From Hericium rajendrae (Eukaryota > Basidiomycota > Agaricomycetes > Russulales > Hericiaceae), in the NCBI GenBank assembly GCA_033439255.1, contig CM065878.1, forward strand, positions 2,976,001 through 3,040,000: a stretch of DNA of 64,000 bases. Reading direction: 5' to 3'. A model generated the notes under the pieces. It had not been told where the DNA came from and searched no databases. It was given only the letters and a program-made list of their open reading frames with translations. Made by a program: the position numbers and the translations under genes. Each line of letters opens with the position of its first letter. The first letter of the stretch is position 1. Shown here piece by piece: positions 5,634 to 36,600 of the stretch.

Positions 5634-7860
5634 TTACATCTGTTGAAGTGTCAGAATCATCGATGTCGCGGCACAGGCGAAGTCCAACGTACCAGCCACT
5701 GCCAGATCGCCTCCGTCCTGTTTCTAGGAGGGGGCTCGTCGTAGGTCTCGGCCTCGATCTCTGCTAGACCAGACACGAAGTCCATGTCTTCCGCAGCGAC
5801 GGGTTGCACGCGCGTCCAGAAGAACGAGATGGCGTACAGCACCGGGAAGAGCATGAAGGGCAGGTAATTCGTCACGAACGACGCTGTGTCCCAGTGACCC
5901 TTGATGAACACCGCGAAACCGCTGAACTGAAAACAGGCAGGCGCGTCAATTTCACATGTGGGCAAGATAGAAAGCAAGGCCACGTACGAAGCAGATGATG
6001 AAACACGAGATGGCTGCGTACCACGCCGCGAAAGGCTGCAGACCCGAGGCGTAAGGCAGCTTGGTCCGGTCAATGCCCTGAGCCTTGCAGCCTGCGTAGA
6101 AACGAATGTAGGTCACGGCGATGCCGAACCAGGTCATCAGACCTGCGATGGACGTCATGTTCGAAAACCACGTGAAAACTGCGCCGGAGCCGCTGTTAAT
6201 GCCCATGAACGCGAGGAGCGCGAACAAAGTCGAGAGCACGAGGGCCACCCAGGGCAAGGCCGTTGCGTGTGGTGCGTTGGAAGATCTTGGGCGCGTTTCC
6301 GGCCACCGACAAGCCATCTGTTGTCAACGGCAATTGGTCAGTGAACGAAATGACAGAAAGACGACTGCTACTTACACATAGCGCGGGAACTGGTGTACAT
6401 GTCACTAGAAGCCGCAGACCAGGCAGATGTGAGAAGCGCCGCATTAATGACCTGTCATACATGACGCTCAATTAATAGCCGAGATACGCACGTCCCTCAA
6501 GAGACTCACACTTGGAAGAGCCTTGATCCCGGCATTCTGGATGGCAATAACGAATGGAGATCCTCCAGCGTTGGTCGAGTTCAGACCGAGGCCGGGCTGA
6601 TTGGACGGGACGAGCAGGCCAATGACTACGACACCACCGATGTAGAACAGCAGGATCCGGACGTACACCCGGCGGATCGCCTTCGGGAGATTGCGTCGCG
6701 GATTCTTAGCCTCACCAGCAGCAATCTACAGCAGGTTACTTCAGATTGACTGCGGCACAACAATGGAAGTTTCGACACATACTGCAACAATCTCGGTTCC
6801 GATGAAGGAGAAGGCGGCCTGGGTCATGACAGCCCACCATCCCAGGAAGCGCCCTTTCGTGCCAGCAATGCCGTCATACTGAACGAAGGGGCCAGGATTC
6901 TTCCAGTACCGGAAGCCGAGTCGGTCATGGTTGGGCCACCACCGAGGTCGAGGACGATACCAAGGATGATAAGACCTATGACGTCGGGTGAGCCCCAAGC
7001 GATTATCTCCAATCGGACAGCACCCACCAGTGATAGTAACGACCTTGATCGAAGCGAAGATGAATTCGGCTTCCCCATAAACACCTGCGCGCGGGATCTC
7101 AGTTCCGGGGAAATCGAGGCAATTGATGATGTCGCTTACCAGCGCCCATGAAATTGATAGCGACCACGACGAGCAGGCATATGATGATCCACACCGAGTT
7201 GTTGACGGTCCTGTTCCAGTAGTTGATGAGCACGGACGCTGCGCTCAGCTCCGCGGGCAGGATGAACGTCCAGTTGTACCAGTAGTTCCAGCCCATTGTG
7301 AACGAGAGCGCCGGGTTCACGAAGCGCTCCGCGAGCTTGATATGCCCACCGGGTATAGGGAGGAAGGCGATCATTTCGCCGAGGGAGACCTGATACGCGC
7401 CCGGTCAGCTGGGTGCACATGAAATGTTCGTGGGGACAGCCGGACGGACCATGACGCTGTAGCATACGGTGCCTACGACGGCATACCCAAGGAGCAGACC
7501 GACGGGGCCGCCGTTCGCAAGGGAGGTCGCGGTTCCCAGGAAAAGACCAGTCCCGATGACACCTAAATATAGTCGCGTGCTCAATAAATCATGACCCGCG
7601 GAGGGTGATCGATATGTACGTACCGCCAATACTGCAAACATCGACAGGTCAGACGAGGCGACGCTACAAGCAGACGGGACATACCTGATCATGGCAATGT
7701 GTCTGTTCTTCAGCTGCCGCTTGAGCTTCTGCTGCTCGGGCGGCGCACCGCCGCCTTCGAGGTAAGAATTGGAATCATCTGTGACATCGGCCGCGGCGGT
7801 CGTGTGCACCTCCGTCTTCTCATTCTTCAGTTTCTCATCGTAGCTGTCCCCGGAAGACAT
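5634..7860 (-). CDS. Amino acid permease (YAT/GAP1-like), tandem copy 2
   Basis: This is a paralogue of the gene at 2224-4425, same orientation, with all ten introns at the same positions: exons 7860-7685, 7631-7624 (8 nt), 7562-7450, 7389-7140, 7084-7028, 6975-6783, 6725-6510, 6451-6376, 6317-5988, 5926-5693 and 5639-5634 (6 nt, Met plus stop). It has the same signature IGGVIGTGLFLGT, GGHIKLAERF, SFIGTEIVA and acidic tail EDMDFVSGLAEIEAE. Two compensating indels are seen: a base missing in the G-run 6933-6935 (before PNHDRLGFRYW) and an extra A at 6256-6257 (between TTRNG and LPWVAL). With both corrected the protein is 552 aa. It arose by tandem duplication; the two N-terminal tails differ, so the copies are not recent. 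Confidence 0.9.
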
Positions 7861-25543: not shown

Positions 25544-26449
25544 TGATCTCCAGGTCTCAACAAGTCACCTTTTGCGGTGGCTTCCTCCATTCTGATGTAT
25601 TATATAGTCTTCTTTCGATGATAATGTTTCGTTACTATGATCAGACCATTGTAGATATGTGACGGTGAAGATGTGGCATGTGACTGTATCCGACGGCAGA
25701 AACCTAACCCTACGCGCATGCCGCATGTCCCGTTGCCCGTGTCACATATGTACCCTCTGTATTTCGACCGTCGGCACGTACTAAGCTCTTTAACTCGCCA
25801 GGCTCCTCCGTCCTCACTGTTACAGATGTTATGCTAAGTCAAATTCTACTTCCTGCATACTTTCGCGACCAGAGAAGGGTGTCACACTTCGTGACGTACC
25901 ACAGCATGTGTGACCAGCCTGGTAGCGGGTGCTGCCGCCAGAGCGGCCATAGACGTTATCTCCGACACCTTCGTCATTCGCAGGGTTTTGAACGGTCGAC
26001 CGTCCTGAGCGATCACGACCGTTTTCGACCGATTTCCGTCAGGTGCGGCAGTCGTCACGTGACTTTTTGCATCTGGCCCCCTCCCGCAAGATCTGTAACC
26101 CTACTAACCCTACCAACCCTAGCGCCGGGTTCTCGAGGCTCGAGGGACCAAGTCGAAAGGCGGGCGCGCGATCCACGTTCCGGGCGCGCTGCTCGCCCGC
26201 GTTCGTTCTCAACCACTCGGGTAGGCAGTAGGAACGTATATTAGCCAGACCTAAGGTACAGATGACAGGAGGGGCCATGCTGAGGGCCCGAGAAGCAAGG
26301 GAGATGTTAAATGTAAGTAGGGAGTGCATTAATAGATTAGATTCCCGGGCCTGTTCAAAAGCTCGTGAAGGCTCATTCTGCCTGGGGCGCGCTCTCCGTG
26401 TCCGGCATCAGCGCTGGCACCAGCGCGAGCGGCGCGACGAGCGACACGG
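25544..26449. other. Intergenic region left of the mobile-element island
   Basis: It holds a 12-bp perfect palindrome acggtcgaccgt (25992-26003), a 10-bp palindrome gtcacgtgac (26054-26063), and telomere-repeat-like units (listed separately). No coding sequence recognised. The left end of the island's element probably lies here, but no terminal inverted repeat was identified by eye. Confidence 0.45.
26097..26122 (+). repeat. Telomere-like (AACCCTA) short tandem array
   Basis: Three copies of a 9-bp unit starting aaccctac/g lie in a row; aaccct is the fungal telomere repeat on the C-rich strand. A single similar site lies at 25704-25712 and agggttaggg at 17602-17611. Too short to be a telomere; it could be a telobox-type site or trace of a repaired end. 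Confidence 0.5.
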
Positions 26450-29400
26450 CTAGTTCTGAGGGCCCGAGACACCCGGGGCGACCGCGGTCGAACTGAGCTG
26501 CCCAGCGCGGTTCTGCCCAGCGCAGTTCGCGCTGATGACGAGCACGAGCGGGTCGATGACGAGAAACTGTTTGCCAGCGACCTCGATCATGCGCTCGTCG
26601 AGGGGCGGGCCGTCGATCTCGAGATCCTCCCAAAGCCTGAAGAGGATGCGATCTTCTGGTAAGTTCTTGACGAGCCGTGCGTCGAGTGTGCAGGCGAAGT
26701 TCAGGAGGTCGGGCGGCAGATCGAGCATCTGCTGTCCGTCGACTACGAGCCGCTCGTAGTAGTCACGCACGGTGTCGAGGAAGGTGGCCGCGTTGAAGTG
26801 CGTGCCGTCCTTGTAGATCCCGCTTGGCTGTGGCCACGGCGGTGGCATGTCCTTATCATCGGTGATCTTCACGCCGTCCGAGCAGCATTTGAGCTTGTGG
26901 TTCTCTGGTGAACCGGTCGGACCTGGGTACTTGACCGTTTTGCAGCGAGTGCAAACCTGGGTCTTCCGCTAGGGAGCGAGGCACGTCAGTGGCATGATCG
27001 GCGCGCCCGATGGCGCACAACGCGCGTGATTCGGGATGGGTGTGAGCAAAATCGGTACTCACTGGCTTTGCTCCCGGCTTTGAGAGCACCACGGCAGCGC
27101 ACTGCGTCGTCCAGAATTCTGTGTTCTTCGACCCCTTAGCTGGAGCGAAGCACACATGTTAGTAGAGAATATGTAGCACAGTAGTACGTTCTTACTCACA
27201 AACGAAGTCCCCGTCACGAATGCGATCCGTGACCATCTTCTCGATGGTCTTGAGCTTCTCGATGAGGGCGTGTGGGTGCTTCTTGATGGTACACATCTTG
27301 TCTTTGTCGTTCTTAGCACGCAGCCTTACGTTGTAGTCCACCGTCGCATCGATCCACATGCGGGATGTCATCGCAAATGATGCCCAACGTCGCTCGACGC
27401 GCATCTTCGCGAAGATCCGGAATTCGTTGTCAGTTTCGATCTTCATTGAATGCGGATGAACGCCGGTGAGGACAGTGAAAAAACGCTGTGAACGTGTAAG
27501 ACCGTCCAAGGGCGGGATCGGAATGGATGGTAGCACGACGCCTTGGGTGCGCTGCTGCAGTGGGGAGGGCTGCGCTGGGGCCTGGGCGGCCGTTGTCGAG
27601 GCTGAGGTGGCCGTCATCGAATCGGGGGCCTGCGCCACCAGCGCCTCCGGCGTCTCCGTGTCGTCGTACGGGGGCTTTTGCAGCCCGAAAAATGCATTGA
27701 TCCGAGGCCCGACCTTGCTCCCGCCGCCCGGGACAGGGATGTTAGATGGCACCTAAAATGGAAGCAATGAAGAGACGAGCGACTCAGCAGGGCACGCAAC
27801 ACGGAAAGAAAGACGATGGGCGCACCATGGATACAGCGATGGGGCCCTTGTAGTGAGGCGGGAGCCGGGCGCGCTTCGCTGCTCGACCCGTCTTAGCACT
27901 CGAGTCGGCGGCATCTGCTTGTCCCGCATGCGCGTCGGCTGCGGGCCGTTTGCGCTTCGTCGACTGCATCGGCGCTATGCTCAGCGTCGATGTCGTGCTC
28001 GTTGTTGGTGTTGTTCTCGATGGAATGGCACCTGGTGTTGGCACCGTGCTCTGTGGTGCTGCACGCGATGGAATCGCCGCGGTCGTCGCGCTCAGTGGCG
28101 CGGCGCTCGGTCCCATTTGGGGAGCGGCAGCTGCGGTAGTGGACGGGAGGGTGGACGGGAGGGCATCGTGTTCGGAGTCCTCAGTGAGATCCTGAATAGA
28201 CTCCCATCAGAACGAAACATCGGTGCATGAAAATCCCGAGGACTTACTATGCAGTCCTCTGGACTTCGCACCGCACTGGCGGCAAGTTCGGCTTGCCGAG
28301 AGTCCGAGACCGTCTTTGTCAAAGCGGGCTGCGCAGGAGTATGGGAGATAGCGCGAAGGCGCGGATCGACTTGCTCGTCCGAGACCGTCTGCCGCGGTAC
28401 TGCGGGCTGCTCTGTGGTGGTAGAGCCCGAGTTCTGGGGGAGCAGGCGAAGGCCGGGGTCGATGTGCATCGACGCCAGAATGGCGACGCTCTGCGGCTCG
28501 ACTCCATCTGGGTCCTCGAGCTCCACCCGGTCCACCAGGTCCAAGGGATCATCTACCTCCTCTTTGGTGAGTGGAGAGGCGCCGATTTTCTGCACTTCAG
28601 ACTCAACAAGGCCGTTGAAGTCCTTCGCATGAGCTGGCGAGCTGGTGAGACCGAAGATCTCGCCGCTCTCGATGTTGGGCAGCTGGGGGCGATCGGTCCG
28701 CACTGCGGCGCTATCGCGCCGTCGATTGGTGGCAAGGAGCTTGTTGTACTGTGTTGCGATGTGGTCAGTCAGGTGGACGTGATGACATCCGTGGGTAGAA
28801 ACCACGAAACGCTCTGATTCCGTCACCGCATTGTCCGCATTGAGGCGCGTGAATCCGATTCGCATGTTGCGACGATGGACGAAATCGTGAGCAAGGCCGT
28901 TGAAGAGCTCGATGCCGCACGGATGTGCGCGCATGATAGAATTCCAGTGTTTGTTAGTGCCCTCGATGCGGCTCCCGTCGGAGCGAATGTCTTGCCTGCA
29001 ACGGGACAGGCAGCCCTTTTGAACGTGCCGAAGCTGGTCCTCGTGCACCTGAACAAAATGACGATCAGTTACAATCCATCAGAAGTGAAGGAAGCATGAT
29101 GTAGGAGTCCAAATGTGACTTGCCTTTTGTGCCGCTGCCGACCAGACCGATCCCTTCTTCACCCATTTCTCATACATCTGTACCAGCCTGACTTCCTGCT
29201 CCTCCTGGCTCCAGTACACAGCAGGCTGGCCTTTGACAGCACGCTGTTTCAAGATCGCGTCCACGACATCATGCGACACGGCACTGCGGTAGGGATTTTT
29301 CAGCCCGTTGATGACGGCGGCAAGATACCTGCACGAAAAATGTGTCAGCGCGACCCGAAGCTGCGAGAGGAGCAAGGAGAGACCATACCGCATCATAAAA

Positions 29401-31084
29401 TGGTAAGTGTCCAGTACGACTTGGGTGTTCGGCATTGCCATGAGGATCGCGTTGCGGAAGTGACAACAGGAATCCACGACGGTGATCTCAGGGAGCTCGA
29501 CTCCTTGAATTTCGCACCGCCGAGCATAACCGTTGAGCGAGTTGGTGAGTTCGATGTGCGCCTGAGTCTGCGACATCCACTGAAGAAAGAACAGAGTCAG
29601 CTGCCGTTGCAAGGCCGAGGCGCCGACGGCATGATCATCCACTCACCCAGAACATGGTCTCCGTGTGCTCATTGATCGCGGTGCTGAGACCGCCCTTCAT
29701 GACTTTCATTCGCTTGCGCTGGCTGTCGGTTATTGTCGCCTTCTTCACGACCTTGAAGGTTCCATCCACGGACAGCGAGATACCTGTTGGGGTTTGAAGG
29801 TAAGCCTCTGCTGTCATGTTCGTTCGGCGCGCACTTACCGCGTATCGTTCGCATGTACCTCTGCGACTCCACCTCGCGTGAGCGCGCGGTGAAGTCCAGG
29901 TACACCTCGGAAATGATTTCGTCCGAGATAGAGCGGCCGCCGTACCCGGTGACGACGAAGGGCTCTGAAAATTGCTGTAATGGACGGTAGTGGAAGTATG
30001 CGCTGTGCATTGCGCGGTAAGTCACTAAGTATTCTAGTACTGCCTTGTTGTACTCAAGCAGGTGAAGCTCTAAGAAGCAGATGAGGGACTTCGCATGATC
30101 ACAGCGAGCAGAACGACATACGGCGTATGTTTTCTGCAAGGCCGCTTGACGTCGTTGAAGGCCGGACCTCAGTGATCAGGTCGAGGAGGTCGCGCGTCAC
30201 GCCACAGCGCTTGGTGAAGACCGGCATCCCAGCTGTCGAATCCCGCGATATCAACGACGAATGCATCATGAAGACCGGGATGAGCGACTTACGAGGAAGG
30301 GCCCACAGCTCCCATTTCTTCCAGAACTCCCGGTTCGTTGTCGAGAGGCAGTACGACGGCAGTTCGACGGTGTCGTCATCCGCTTTCTCCGCTGCCTTGC
30401 GCCCTGACTTGACGCTCTTCTTTTTCAGCTTCGGGCCAGCCTTTTTCTCTGCCGCGGCCTTCGCCTTCGTCCGCTCTTTCTCGCAGGGCGTGCAACGAAG
30501 CTGAACCCCAATGGCATACTCCTCCCGGTGTACACCGTGGATATGCCGATGCCCCTTGGTGTTCCATCCCTCCCAGGTGATCATCGTGGAGTCGCAGACG
30601 GGGCACATGCCCAGATTGGGAAAGTAGAATGGATGGACGACGTACACGGGCATGAGGTAATTCGTTGTTGGCGTGATTTCGGCATTCTTCTGACGCTTCA
30701 GGATATCGCGGTAGCTCGGTGGTTCAAATCGAGGGCCGTAGAGCGGCAGCTCATCTGGGAGGAATGACGCGAGCTTCCCCCTTGCCGGCGCGGTGAGTCC
30801 ATGTACGTAGTCGACGTACTTCACGATATTGGCTTCCCATTCGAGCTGATCTTCGTTATGTGAGTTCGCATTCCGGTGCTTGATCCAGGATTCCTTCTTG
30901 GTCTTCACCTACAGGGCATCAAAATCGGTGACCGGTGCATGACAGTCAGCAACAAAATCCGGTACAGATAAATGACCGCACGACATACCGCCTCGTCCCA
31001 CTCTGTGTCGAAGGCGGTGTGCTTGTCGGACGGAAGCGTCTTGCGGATCTGGGCGCGCACGACGCACGGATTGAATGTCGACAT
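26450..31084 (-). CDS. Giant transposase-like protein (zinc-ribbon, RNase-H-like core), 1,320 aa
   Basis: Eleven exons (31084-30989, 30908-30122, 30069-29839, 29783-29647, 29579-29389, 29328-29124, 29048-28248, 28191-27826, 27752-27200, 27139-27063, 26968-26450) sum to 3963 nt, exactly in frame. Order: a Cys pair module (CPVCDST, HIHGVHREE, LRCTPC) near residue 130, and a Lys-rich linker. Then comes a catalytic-type core: LSVDGTFKVVKK, VVDSCCHFRNAI, VVLDTYHFMMRY, and SRIEGTNKHWNSIMRAHP. An S/T/P linker with KRKR and KRAR basic clusters follows, then a second Cys motif (CTRCKTVK...CCSDG) and a conserved PPWPQPSGIYKDGTHF tail. The sixth intron (29049-29123) uses a GC donor. The Asp/Asp/Glu-type spacing suggests DDE/DDD nuclease chemistry; that is an inference. 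Transcription start and a longer N-terminus (ATG 31126) remain possible. Confidence 0.7.
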
Positions 31085-31556
31085 CCGGAGATGCGGAGCG
31101 GACAGGACGAGCAGGTGCGCAGACAAGCAAGTGGGCGAAAGGTAGAGGAGGGACGAGGGACGAGCTGCCTAGGAGACACACCGGAGGCAAATCGTGCGCG
31201 GCATATCTATTGTACATGACTTAGTCTGTACGTTGCGCTGGCGAAACGTCTCGGCTAGCGAGATAGTGAAATTGTATCACACTTCACAACTTTGTAAGGA
31301 ACCACTGGAGTGACAATTCGGCAGGCAGTAACCAAGGTACAGTATAGTAGTGTACCCTCCATCCACAAGAGATACACATATAGTAAGGATGCTTTGTGAG
31401 CCAGACAGACATTTCGAACGAGAAATTAAGCATACAGATGGCCCCAGAACAAGATACAGAACAGATAGAAGTACAATTGGCCATTGGGACAGGGAGACAG
31501 ATGAAACACAAACCGTGAGCACAGCTGCCGCAGAGCGCGCACGTCGCTCTTCGCGA
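31085..31556. other. Spacer between two island genes
   Basis: The 472 bp form the promoter of the transposase-like gene and the 3' flank of its companion. Short frames only; nothing recognised. Confidence 0.5.
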
Positions 31557-32347
31557 TCACATAATGTGCATCGCAAGCAAGCGAGCGGCCATTATTTCGG
31601 TCTTGGACGCACCCTCGGGGCGCCCGCATTCTATCGTGAAGCGAACTCGGATGCGAGCGCCGAACGGCACCTCCTCGAGTGTCTTGAAAGGGCGCTGGTT
31701 TTCCTCCATGTCATACACTGGCATGTACGACATCGGATTCTTACGGCTGCCCTTCACATCCTGTAGGAGAAAGAAAAAAAAAGAAAAGCATGAGTGAGCA
31801 AGAGATACGGATCAGCGCGGGGAGTAGCAAATACCGCTTTGACGACACTGGATGGCGACCAGTGAACCTGGAGCAAATCCAGGTCTGTCGTAGTGCGAGG
31901 CTTTCCCGGCTCCGGTCGAACGAGCTCGGATGTGATAGCGCCGTTCGCCCTGCCGATCGCCAGAAGGCGTCGCAGCCCCTGCCTCCATACGGCATTCTCC
32001 AAGCCTGCGTTGGCTGGGGGACCGAACCAGCAAGACGCATGCATGCGCCGCCCACTGGCATCGGACTCGAAACCAGGCTCGAACCGGTCGCCGCGGGTCG
32101 TGAAGTAGAAGTCCTCGCGCCTGAGACTTCCCTTCATTTCGAAGATGATCGCCGGGTTGTCGAAGTGGTTCCCCTTGGCGTCAGTGTTGGGGCGGTGCTC
32201 GCAATAGAGGCGGGCGGGCTGCGAGTCGAGGCAAGTAATGAGCTGGGCTGTTGCGGGGGGTGCGGGGAGGAGTCCCGGGTTGTATACAGTAAATGTCTCC
32301 TCTTGGTACTTGTGGCGAGCAGCGTTGATGGCGCTATCACTGTCCAT
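31557..32347 (-). CDS. Transposon-island companion protein, 238 aa
   Basis: Two exons, 32347-31835 and 31760-31557, sum to 717 nt in frame. The intron carries a strong polypyrimidine tract before its acceptor. The protein begins MDSDSAINAARHKYQEE and includes CLDSQPARLYCEHRP, FYFTTRGDRFEPGF, CWFGPPANAGLENAVW, VPFGARIRVRF and ASKTEIMAARLLA. No known motif recognised; the even mix of hydrophobic and charged residues suggests a folded domain, perhaps nucleic-acid binding given the neighbour. It lies 472 bp upstream of the transposase-like gene on the same strand. Confidence 0.6.
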
Positions 32348-32828
32348 TGTCGACGGGCGAGGTGGTGGTTAGATTGACAGTTAGCTGAAGCCCCTTACCT
32401 GGCGCAGCACTCGTCCTTATTGGAGCGCGGCACGTCCTTACTTAGAAATCGTGCGCGCGAGTGGCACAGAGAACAGTGTCGAGCTACATGTTTCTCGATC
32501 TACTGTCGAATCTAACATACCATGACCCGGACTTTTGGACATCGGCACGAACGGGCAAACCTGGAGATCGGATGGGCGCTTGATCCCCATCAAACGAAGC
32601 TCTGGTTATGACACAGGCAAAGTACCAACGGGACCTCCAGCCATGGACCGACCCTTCCTAGCCACCGAAGACGGCCCCGAAACCCCCCTTCCTACATTTT
32701 TTCCGGCCTGCGGCAGCCACACCCCTGCGTATGACCGATTTCGGGTTATCTCCAAATGCGTTCACGTGATGATCCGCGCTTGAGTGGGCGGAGTACTGGC
32801 AGGGTACAAGCTCGAAGGAGCTCAGCGC
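32348..32828. other. Spacer inside the island
   Basis: It holds the promoter of the 238-aa gene and the 3' flank of the truncated gene to the right. A plus-strand 82-codon frame (32535-32783) has no recognised pattern. Confidence 0.45.
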
Positions 32829-33362
32829 TCAAGCGCTCAGGCTCCTCGATAAAAACTTGAAACCCGAGAGCGATATAATGGCCTGCAAAGGATGCGCAAT
32901 GAATCCAGATTATGGTGCGGAGTCGAAAGAACGAGGAGGAGACGGCGTGAGGGATTCAGGTCGGAAGTTGGATGCATGGTCTCGTCTGTGAGCGGACTTA
33001 CCTCGTCCCAATGCCGAGACGCGAAAACGAGTGGAATATCCACGGTACCCAACTCACACTGCCAGTTGGCCCAGAAAATGTGGTGCTTAGAGACCTTGGA
33101 TGACTGCGCGCGGGAGGCGTGAGCGTTAGCAATTCAGCTTATGGGGAATGGGGCCTCCGTGTTGGACTGCAGAGCTCCGGGACTGCGGGAACTTAACCAA
33201 GAGCGACATTGTATGCTTAATATGGAGCGAAGACTGTGTATTGTGTGCAACTACTGGGGAAGGAATCCCGACGATCTGGAGGGTGTAGAGGCGTGAGGAA
33301 CCGGGCGTCAAGCTGGTGAGTCCGTGCAGGTCGGCAAGCGACGCGGGGAGCCAGGGGCGGTA
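32829..33362 (-). pseudogene. 5'-truncated three-exon gene abutting ITC1
   Basis: Three exons join in consistent phase: 33362-33255 (YRPWLPASLADLHGLTSL then PGSSRLYTLQIVGIPSP), 33103-33002 (SSKVSKHHIFWANWQCEL then GTVDIPLVFASRHWDE) and 32882-32829 (AIISLSGFKFLSRSLSA, stop). The first exon has a good acceptor at 33363-33364 but no usable ATG exists upstream before the divergent ITC1 gene, so the start is missing. It is either a relic of an island gene cut at the island edge or an unrecognised start. Confidence 0.4.
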
Positions 33363-33647
33363 CTGGAAGAGAAGGGGTGATGCTGATGGCCTAGCAGGGG
33401 GACACGCAGCAGAGGAACGAGAGACGAGGGTGGGTGCAGAGAGCGTGGAGAAAATTGAAGGTAGTTTGAGAGTTCACGCGAGGAGAGGACGCGTTGTGGC
33501 TCTGCCTCGGAAGGCAGAGAGGGCGAAAATGCGAAGGGACGGCCTTACGGATTTATATCCTCCCAAGCCACCCGCGGCCCCTTCCTCCCCTTACCCGCTC
33601 CTCCCTCCCCGCCTCCCCACACATCCTCCCCCTCTCCTCCCTCCACT
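33363..33647. promoter_or_regulatory. 5' flank of ITC1 and right edge of the island
   Basis: It is pyrimidine-rich just before the ITC1 start (about 33580-33647). A hairpin-forming ctctgcc/ggcagag pair lies at 33500-33519. No start codon for the minus-strand truncated gene occurs here. Confidence 0.45.
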
Positions 33648-36600
33648 ATGCCCACCTGCAGACGAAAACGCGTTCTTCTCACCGAACCCTCCGAGGCGCT
33701 CCTCCAGGCCCTCAAATCCGACCCCAATAGACCCGTCTTCTACCTCGAACGAACTGGCGAAATCTTCGAGAACTATGAGCACGTCGTCTCCCCTATGACG
33801 CCCCATCCGTGCTGACCTCCCCTTCCTCCCAGGGCCTATGCCGCACGCATGTCCTTCTACCGCCTCAAGCAGTTCCAGTGCGAGGTCACTGGCAAGAGCG
33901 GTCTCGACTATTTCCAGGCGCTCGAGAGCGAACAACAAGAAGCGCGGACGTTGCATTCCCGCTTCCCCGAACCCCTCAAGTCTGCTATCCTCAAAGCAGT
34001 CCAATGGCGTATGTCTTACCTCCACCTCGTTTCATTCGACGTGTCGCTCATAATGCCATGTTCGCCTTCTGCCTACAGAGGTCATGGGGCGCCTCGATCA
34101 TCTGGTTGAAGCCGTGTTTGATCGCTACAAGGACCGATATTTCGCTGGCGAGAGTGCGTGTTCCACCACTGCGAGCTATCGCATACATCTCACATCTTAT
34201 CCCTAACAGAAATATATGTCGATATCCAAGGAGACAAGTACGTACAATGAGCCTCATCTATAGCAGCACTTGTTCTCACACTGCCACCTCCTCAGGTTCC
34301 TCGCTCGTATCGTGGAAGTCTTTCCTCCTCGTTCGACCCCCACCAAGGCGGAACCTTCCGAAGAACAGCCCGTGGCGTCTTCGTCGACCGCCCTCATCAA
34401 GAGCACCCCTTTGCCGGTGCACGCCATCGGCGGCGACCTCAAGGTCCCCGCTAAAGAGGTGAACGCCGCAGATGACCCACGCAAATATTACTATCGAGTA
34501 CAGATTCTCGAAGAGGAGCGACCTGAAGGTCGCGATAAGCTCGCTGCCTCTGTGAAAGAAGCCCGAGCGAAATATAGCGGGAGCTTCATGGAGGTGCAAT
34601 GTCCTGTCATGAGGTATGTCCAACCACTCTGTCCTCCGTCTGGTGCTGAGCTGACGCGCCCACCTCCGTGTCTAGCCGTGACCGCCTTTCCTTCTCCAAG
34701 AGCATCCTGCGCCGCTTCATCCGTGACTGCGTTGACCGCGATGCAGCTGTCGCCTCGCCCTGGACTGTCAAACCCCAGGTCGCTAAACGGTACGGCGTCT
34801 CTACCGTCATGCCGGAGGAGACACGACTGGGTGTTGAGGACATTAAGAAGGGCGAGATTCAGAAGCGCAAGAAGGTTTGGGAAGAGAAAGAAGGCCCTAT
34901 GACTAAAAAGCAGAGGAAGCTGACCGCCGCTCAAGAGGAGAAGGGTAGGTTGCAGGTCACTATACATGCCTCTCCCTGTCTGACAACGTTTTCAGCGAAA
35001 GCCATGGCGGCAGTCGCGGAGAGGAAAGAACGCGAGGCTCGCGAAAAGGCAGAGAAGCAGCAGAAGGCCAAGGAGGAGGCTGAGCGTCTGGCGGCCGAGA
35101 AGAAGAAGAAAAAGCCCATAAGATACCCTACGGAAGACTTAGACGTCGTGCTGACGGAGAAGGAGAAGAAGGCAGGCATGAAGGTCAAGAGGCCCGTCCC
35201 GAGTCGGGTCGCTTTACCGTTCAACGATGATAAAGGGACGTTTGAGAAGTTCCTCATGGCCTGGACTTTTCTCGTCGTCTATGGGTAAGGCTACCTTGTT
35301 CAACTTGCGACCATCGTTCTCACACAGTCCGCCAGACATCCATTGCATCTCTCGACCTTTACTCTAGATGAGTTTGAGCATGCTATCCGACACTCACTGC
35401 TGGAGCCCGAGTGCCAGATCCTGGCCGAGGTCCATTCCACACTCATTTACAACCTCCGCACACTGAACTTTAACCGACACTCCGCTGTTCTCTCACTTCT
35501 GAGCCTCAAAGATGCATCTGCATCTGAGGGCGAAGAGTGGGGCGTCAGTGTTGACACGCTTCTGGAAGCGATGGCTGACGTAGGTAATAACTGGGAACGA
35601 GCTCCGCTACGTCACAATGAAGGCCGCGAGGGATGGGAGGAGTCGTTAGTTGGCTGCCTCAAAGACGTGAGTTTCCATGTCTCTTATCTATTAGTTGTTC
35701 ATGGCTCTGACGTTCCATTGCCCCTAGCACGCCACTCTGGAGAATTTTCCAGCGTTACGACGTGTTCTTACCCACCTATTATTTGCTCCCGTCTCTTCCG
35801 CCGAGCCTATCAACACCCCGCCGAGCTCTCGCGCATCATCACCCTCGCCTACGCGCACAGTCGTCCGCTCAGTTACTGCTCAACATCCTGCTCAGCGATA
35901 CCATACACTCCCTCCCGAAGATCGGATCACTATCCTTTATTTCATGTGTAACGTCGCCGTATCTAGCAAGGCCATCCATGTCTACATGGAGTCTTGTGAG
36001 GAGCAGCTGACTGCATTGCGGAAAGAGAAAATTGAGGTCAATCGGTCGAGGAAACAATAGTATGTCGTCGTTCCCTTCCTGTATTCACTTTCTAACGGAG
36101 TTCACCAGCATCGAGGAGCGCGATGCTCTCCTTGGAGACAATAACCAAGAGAAAGGAACACCAAACGGAACCTCTAACGGGAACGGTAATGGCCGTGGTA
36201 CTGCATCCACGTCTACCAATGGGGCGGAGGAGGATACGCCGATGAACGACCTGAGCGACCTTTCAGACGTGTCCGCGTCGGAGGCAGGCTCCGAATCTGG
36301 TTTGTCTGGGTCCGGCAACGGCAACGGCAAATCCACCAGGTCAAGTCAGGACCTCCGCCGGAAAGCACAGACACAAGCGCACGCTAAGGAGCGTGAGGCA
36401 GCGCGCATGCGCAACGCCTCCGCGAAGCAAGCGCTTGCGGAGCATCGTCGCCTCGACGAAGAGGTGAACAAACTCGAGCGGCGACTGAAGGCATCGAGCG
36501 CGAGTTCAGGAAGCTCCTTGGATCCGTGCGCGTCAAGCCAATGGGCAGGGACCGATTCTACAACCGCGTGTGGTGGTTCGATGGTCTGGGTTCCGCTTCG

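Follow-up and report, generated by a model that had tools for sequence, protein, structure and literature searches.

The 64,000-nucleotide stretch of Hericium rajendrae contig CM065878.1 analysed here (positions 2,976,001 to 3,040,000 of the forward strand; hereafter the window) raises the question of whether a group of genes between 26450 and 33362 forms a transposon, and of which type. A previous reading of the letters alone, termed the sequence-only reading, proposed that three genes at this site form an undescribed transposon island, with KDZ (Kyakuja-Dileera-Zisupton) transposons as the nearest idea. The results described below suggest, with a probability of about 70%, that this island represents a complete DNA transposon with two genes, which encode a DDE transposase of the Mutator/MULE-ISL3 type (MULE, Mutator-like element) and a companion resembling single-stranded DNA-binding proteins (SSBs). 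The conserved SSB-like partner of the transposase is the distinctive feature of this element. Its status as a cut-and-paste transposon is supported by its ends, by 9-bp target-site duplications, by short copies that are similar to it at the ends only and by near-identical copies, so that the proposal of a transposon island holds.

Ends, target-site duplications and copies of the element

The element occupies positions 25964..32744 on the minus strand and is 6,781 bp long. A 9-bp duplication, GTTATCTCC on the plus strand, is perfect at both borders (32745..32753 on the 5' side and 25955..25963 on the 3' side), and the similarity of other copies breaks off at these borders or a few tens of bases away. 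The transposase and companion genes of the proposed island lie within the element, and its proposed borders and its third gene are not confirmed. The 5' terminal inverted repeat of 22 bp (32723..32744, minus strand) is paired with the 3' terminal inverted repeat (25964..25985, plus strand). These imperfect inverted ends are identical at 14 of 22 positions, and random control pairs, which were run at 14/22 only, reach this value in 2 of 20,000 cases. The inverted ends are 12-16/22 identical across the eight scored copies.

The ends were set by aligning stretches around both borders (12 and 15 rows, window included). When the genome of H. rajendrae itself (46.77 Mb, 19 contigs) is searched at the DNA level with a 7.9-kb query, 60 matches are obtained. 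Apart from the self-match, none of the best-scoring matches starts before query position 754, which corresponds to window position 32747, and many matches stop at 7508-7510. Two weak matches lie farther out, at 7542-7749, and are seemingly unrelated. Duplications were scored by a script for eight copies, including that in the window, out of the 12 and 15 aligned stretches. The duplication is 9/9 in five of these copies and 8/9 in three, and random 9-mer pairs from the window show an identity of at least 8/9 in 3 of 20,000 cases. One of the three 8/9 copies, C6:1104k, is a tandem copy with two candidate right ends; its duplication fits the second of them, and the first gives 3/9. A ninth copy, C1:5114k, was judged by eye instead of by the script, and has an 8-bp duplication, or one of 9 bp if the border is shifted by one base. 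The other copies without a score are C6:1105 (the second of the tandem), C11:60k, C1:644k and C1:5258k, in which the right end is shortened, and C7:2367k and C12:1921k, the left ends of which are absent from the fetched sequence.

The 3' end of the element is rich in a short word. Its last 70 bp (25964..26033) contain four CGGTC/GACCG words, a number that no 70-bp stretch of the window exceeds, and all 32 four-word 70-bp frames begin at 25962-25993. When 17 copy ends were compared, 13 matched the end pattern, and these 13, which come from both subfamilies described below, hold four or five words in the last 90 bp; the four ends without a pattern match were left uncounted. The CGGTC-rich 3' end is probably a transposase-binding region. 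A scan of this end for bacterial promoters is uninformative.

The transposase core is present at 23 loci in the genome. The genome-wide copy search and end alignment by which the sequence-only reading proposed to check the island yield these 23 loci, 9-bp duplications and short imperfect inverted ends, and a single-copy ordinary gene, which would have spoken against a transposon, is rejected within this genome. Six short copies of 0.86-0.91 kb are similar to the element at the ends only, and in three of them the right end is missing its final bases. The copies C2:4236k and C3:3688k agree in 2,197 of 2,236 positions, and their alignment has five gapped columns. A second, diverged subfamily is represented by C9:414k and C3:298k, which are identical at 621/621 columns at the 5' end and at 1,032/1,035 columns at the 3' end, and which have unrelated flanks. 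The 5' end of this subfamily is similar to that of the main family and again contains CGGTCATA; its C3 copy has a 9/9 duplication and its C9 copy has none. Because near-identical pairs are found at different places, recent movement seems likely for some members of the family. The copy in the window, however, has no close copy; its longest matching stretches are about 70% identical at the DNA level. Many matches to the family carry internal stops.

Several members have an unusual structure. The longest one, C6:90930-107512, measures 16.6 kb between its ends and has a perfect 9-bp duplication. Its exon 7 lies at about 94.8k, its exon 9 at about 98.8k and its last exon at 106.8k, and this spacing points to extra DNA (nested insertions or cargo) on either side of exon 9. 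Open reading frames (ORFs) of at least 130 amino acids up to 8.5 kb into this copy (L027 5800-9901) are of low complexity or represent transposase exons 7 and 9. At C6:1104919-1106792, two short copies are arranged in tandem: the left end of the second follows the right end of the first after a gap of only 6 bp, and the right-end sequence is repeated. The short copies C11:59928-60804, C1:644239-645116 and C1:5258183-5259061 have the appearance of segmental duplications, not of separate insertions, because they have a common left flank and an identical shortened right end.

Transposase gene and putative catalytic core

The transposase gene is located at 26450-31084 on the minus strand and consists of 11 exons with 3,963 coding nucleotides including the stop codon, encoding 1,320 amino acids. 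The intact gene described from the sequence alone is borne out as a prediction. The predicted splice form has no internal stop; nine of its ten introns have GT-AG borders, and the remaining one (29123-29049) has GC-AG borders. The splice sites of this model, which is predicted from DNA, were picked by hand to hold the frame, and its open frame is therefore partly by construction; the model is supported by related exons elsewhere in the genome. Exon 1 (30989..31084) is followed by exon 2 (30122..30908), which encodes an N-terminal CPVC...CTPC module (C134-C174) and a basic linker, and by exon 3 (29839..30069). The first catalytic-type Asp (D378) is encoded by exon 4 (29647..29783), the second Asp (D453) and DxxH (474-477) by exon 5 (29389..29579), part of the stretch between the second Asp (D2) and the Glu (E) by exon 6 (29124..29328) and the Glu motif RIEG (E578) by exon 7 (28248..29048). 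Exon 8 (27826..28191) encodes a linker with KRKR. Exons 9 (27200..27752) and 10 (27063..27139) precede exon 11 (26450..26968), which encodes a C2HC-type Cys/His module and the PPWPQPSG tail.

The D-D-DxxH-E core lies between the two cysteine modules. The motifs SVDGTF, VVDSCC and LDTYHF, to which the sequence-only reading had drawn attention, place D378, D453 and D474/H477, and the Glu is E578. In the window protein the spacing is 74 residues from the first to the second Asp, 20 from the second Asp to DxxH and 124 from the second Asp to the Glu. Conservation was assessed in an alignment of 38 rows (A5) from selected loci, several of which include translated introns. The first Asp (SxD[AG]TF) is conserved in 8/8 rows reaching that site, both the second Asp (DxCC) and the DxxH motif in 10/10 rows and the Glu (IEG) in 15/15 rows. 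The two separate Cys modules noticed earlier are likewise conserved among hand-chosen paralogs: CxxC...CxxC in 14/14 aligned N-exons, and C-x2-C-x14-H-x4-C in 13/13 aligned C-exons. The N-terminal module weakly resembles several zinc ribbons, with Zn_ribbon_ISL3 (PF14690) found in 1/14 N-exons (E 0.18). For the C-terminal module, Pfam offers nothing convincing (best E 0.0079).

When six cores were compared with Pfam at E<=10, DDE_Tnp_ISL3 (PF01610) is found in four (best E 1.8e-6) and MULE (PF10551) also in four (best E 0.0097). Among four cores scored singly, one is above the ISL3 cut-off (27 vs 23 bits), and all four are below the MULE cut-off (13.2-16.8 vs 27.6 bits). The window protein itself scores below the ISL3 cut-off. 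NCBIfam detects ISL3 in 2/6 cores and IS256 in 1/6. Duplication length (9 bp), motif pattern and these weak profile matches all point to the Mutator/ISL3 group rather than to KDZ.

The RNase-H-like core proposed from the sequence alone is consistent with the motif pattern and the weak ISL3 and MULE profile matches, and its fold is not confirmed by structure prediction. The AlphaFold2 (AF2) core model is poor (predicted local distance difference test 57; the input reading contained three introns). It is confident only at about residues 71-125, which hold the strand-helix-strand of the second Asp, and 161-215, and the helices between the second Asp and the Glu are only partly confident. The RNase-H fold is therefore treated as putative. 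Given this, and given MULE domain scores below the cut-off, we do not assign the element formally to MULE. In a Foldseek search with the core model, the best row is the IS256-family enzyme ISCth4 (E 0.43, not significant); transposases (ISCth4, Hermes) appear only as non-significant rows, beside RNase-H-like rows of Prp8. VIA-align of the core model is uninformative and does not bear on families outside its list. Searched against PDB sequences, the core profile gives four matches, all with E >=0.11 and none a transposase. When the core is aligned by hhalign with one MULE fragment, the stretch from the second Asp to the His is in register, with a probability of 1.2, which shows little. No relative of the core is found in plasmids (tblastn, one core), and none of 127 pattern stretches in genome contigs and 107 in viral contigs is confirmed, so that these searches yield neither a prokaryotic nor a viral relative.

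Companion gene and alternative readings

The companion gene is located at 32347-31557 on the minus strand. As described previously, it encodes 238 amino acids; the model, predicted from DNA and supported for exon 1 by paralogs, has two exons (31835..32347 and 31557..31760). It lies upstream of the transposase gene at 20/23 core loci. The AF2 model of the companion has a predicted template modelling score of 0.76. By VIA-align, six of its eight best entries are gp2.5, Enc34 SSB or CP312R, and the other two are the phage proteins 4klk (DUF2815) and 4jg2, which are presumably kin of this SSB class. The companion is thus predicted to have an OB fold of the type of T7 gp2.5 and the SSBs of nucleocytoplasmic large DNA viruses.

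This assignment has to be weighed against a Mutator-like transposon in which the companion is another OB-fold or beta-rich DNA-binding or anti-silencing protein, comparable, as far as the available part of the sources goes, with VANC of VANDAL elements. OB folds have many functions, no sequence similarity of the companion to SSBs is detected, and its Foldseek PDB list is a mixture of MCM and SSB domains, none of them significant. The odds of the main reading are also slightly lowered by the fact that the eight best structural matches of the companion represent only about five distinct proteins, two of them presumably SSB-like. Another type of companion is nevertheless unlikely, and an SSB-like protein is preferred.

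A KDZ transposon is suggested by the abundance of KDZ domains in this genome (at least 172) and, by our own reading, by a common DxxC, H and EG-xx-W flavour. However, the KDZ domain (PF18758) is found in 0/6 cores at E<=10, hhalign of the core with one KDZ fragment gives E 0.41, and the duplications are 9 bp long, not of 7-8 bp as given for Kyakuja, a Dileera lineage and Zisupton in the part of PMC12730594 available. The KDZ identity, which the sequence-only reading named as the nearest idea, is accordingly rejected on profile and duplication length, and is highly improbable. It is just as improbable that the two genes are a domesticated host gene pair left from an old transposon. In favour of such a pair, the window copy has no close copy and yet its genes are open; however, it keeps a perfect duplication and both ends, other members form near-identical pairs at different places, many matches have internal stops, and short copies exist.

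For the two-gene Mutator/ISL3-type transposon, we infer catalysis, end binding, single-stranded DNA binding and joint action of the two proteins. The large DDE-type transposase would recognize both the short inverted repeats at the ends and the subterminal CGGTC-rich stretch on the 3' side, with binding probably via its zinc modules, excise the element and join it to a staggered target, which would generate the 9-bp duplications. The companion would most likely coat or anneal single-stranded DNA formed in transposition or gap repair. We propose tentatively, with less than even confidence, that the element belongs to an undescribed eukaryotic DDE lineage between prokaryotic ISL3 and eukaryotic MULEs, characterized by a fixed cassette of a double-zinc transposase and a virus-type SSB, which would imply a step of transposition exposing long single strands. 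The occurrence of a transposase and an SSB-type protein together at 20/23 loci would offer a testable case for a need to handle single strands in such elements and, if true, would connect cut-and-paste transposons with replication proteins of virus type. The delimited family with near-identical copies is useful for following movement in this fungus.

Outside the element, an ORF with a WAC_Acf1 domain (E 1.5e-19; chromatin remodelling subunit type) is located at 33465-34106 on the plus strand, with the gene seemingly starting about 0.9 kb beyond the element. Of the ORFs past 32744, two on the minus strand were compared with Pfam, and neither gives a match at E<=1. The flank at 25752-25958, just outside the 3' end, resembles C2:4749547 and C2:4499446 and is perhaps an unrelated repeat beside the insertion.

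Comparison with known systems

In the literature searched, no transposon of such make-up is found, and this absence is claimed for that literature, with Repbase and eukaryotic protein databases outside its scope. In the genome of H. rajendrae, KDZ domains are very abundant (at least 172 matches) and canonical MULE domains are rare (at least six); the KDZ abundance, like the intron structure, suggests a basidiomycete. The element shares its genome and the presence of cysteine modules with KDZ transposons and basidiomycete CxC5/CxC6 proteins and differs from the former by the lack of a KDZ profile match in six cores; CxC6 has at least nine matches in the genome, none at the core places of the family. 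From the SSBs T7 gp2.5, Enc34 and CP312R of African swine fever virus, the companion differs in having no detectable sequence similarity to them and in its location in a transposon.

The ISL3 family of prokaryotes gives the best single-sequence profile match, and the module ahead of the core weakly resembles a zinc ribbon, as in ISL3. ISL3 duplications are usually 8 bp long. Unlike ISL3, the element is eukaryotic, has introns, a transposase of 1,320 amino acids and a companion gene, and generates 9-bp duplications.

The element resembles Mutator-like elements (MULE/MuDR, such as Mutyl and MuDR with mudrB) in several respects, as far as the available parts of the sources show. Its 9-bp duplications fall in their range of 8-11 bp (PMC6446971), and a DDE core with a C/DxxH signature, a long stretch between the second Asp and the Glu, zinc modules and, in some MULEs, a second gene appear to be common to both. 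In prokaryotic Mutator-like families, as described in the part of PMC3942029 available, the second Asp and the Glu are 99-138 residues apart and C/D(2)H follows the second Asp by 11-19 residues; the distance of 124 in the window protein is inside the former range, and its distance of 20 to DxxH is just beyond the latter. The element is unlike Mutator-like elements in its short imperfect inverted ends, in its MULE Pfam scores below the cut-off and in its C-terminal C2HC-type module. What second genes do in Mutator-type elements is only partly settled; the available part of PMC6446971 describes mudrB as a protein with an unknown function, apparently needed for integration. A companion with a predicted SSB-type fold is absent from the second genes in the available part of Table 1 of that source.

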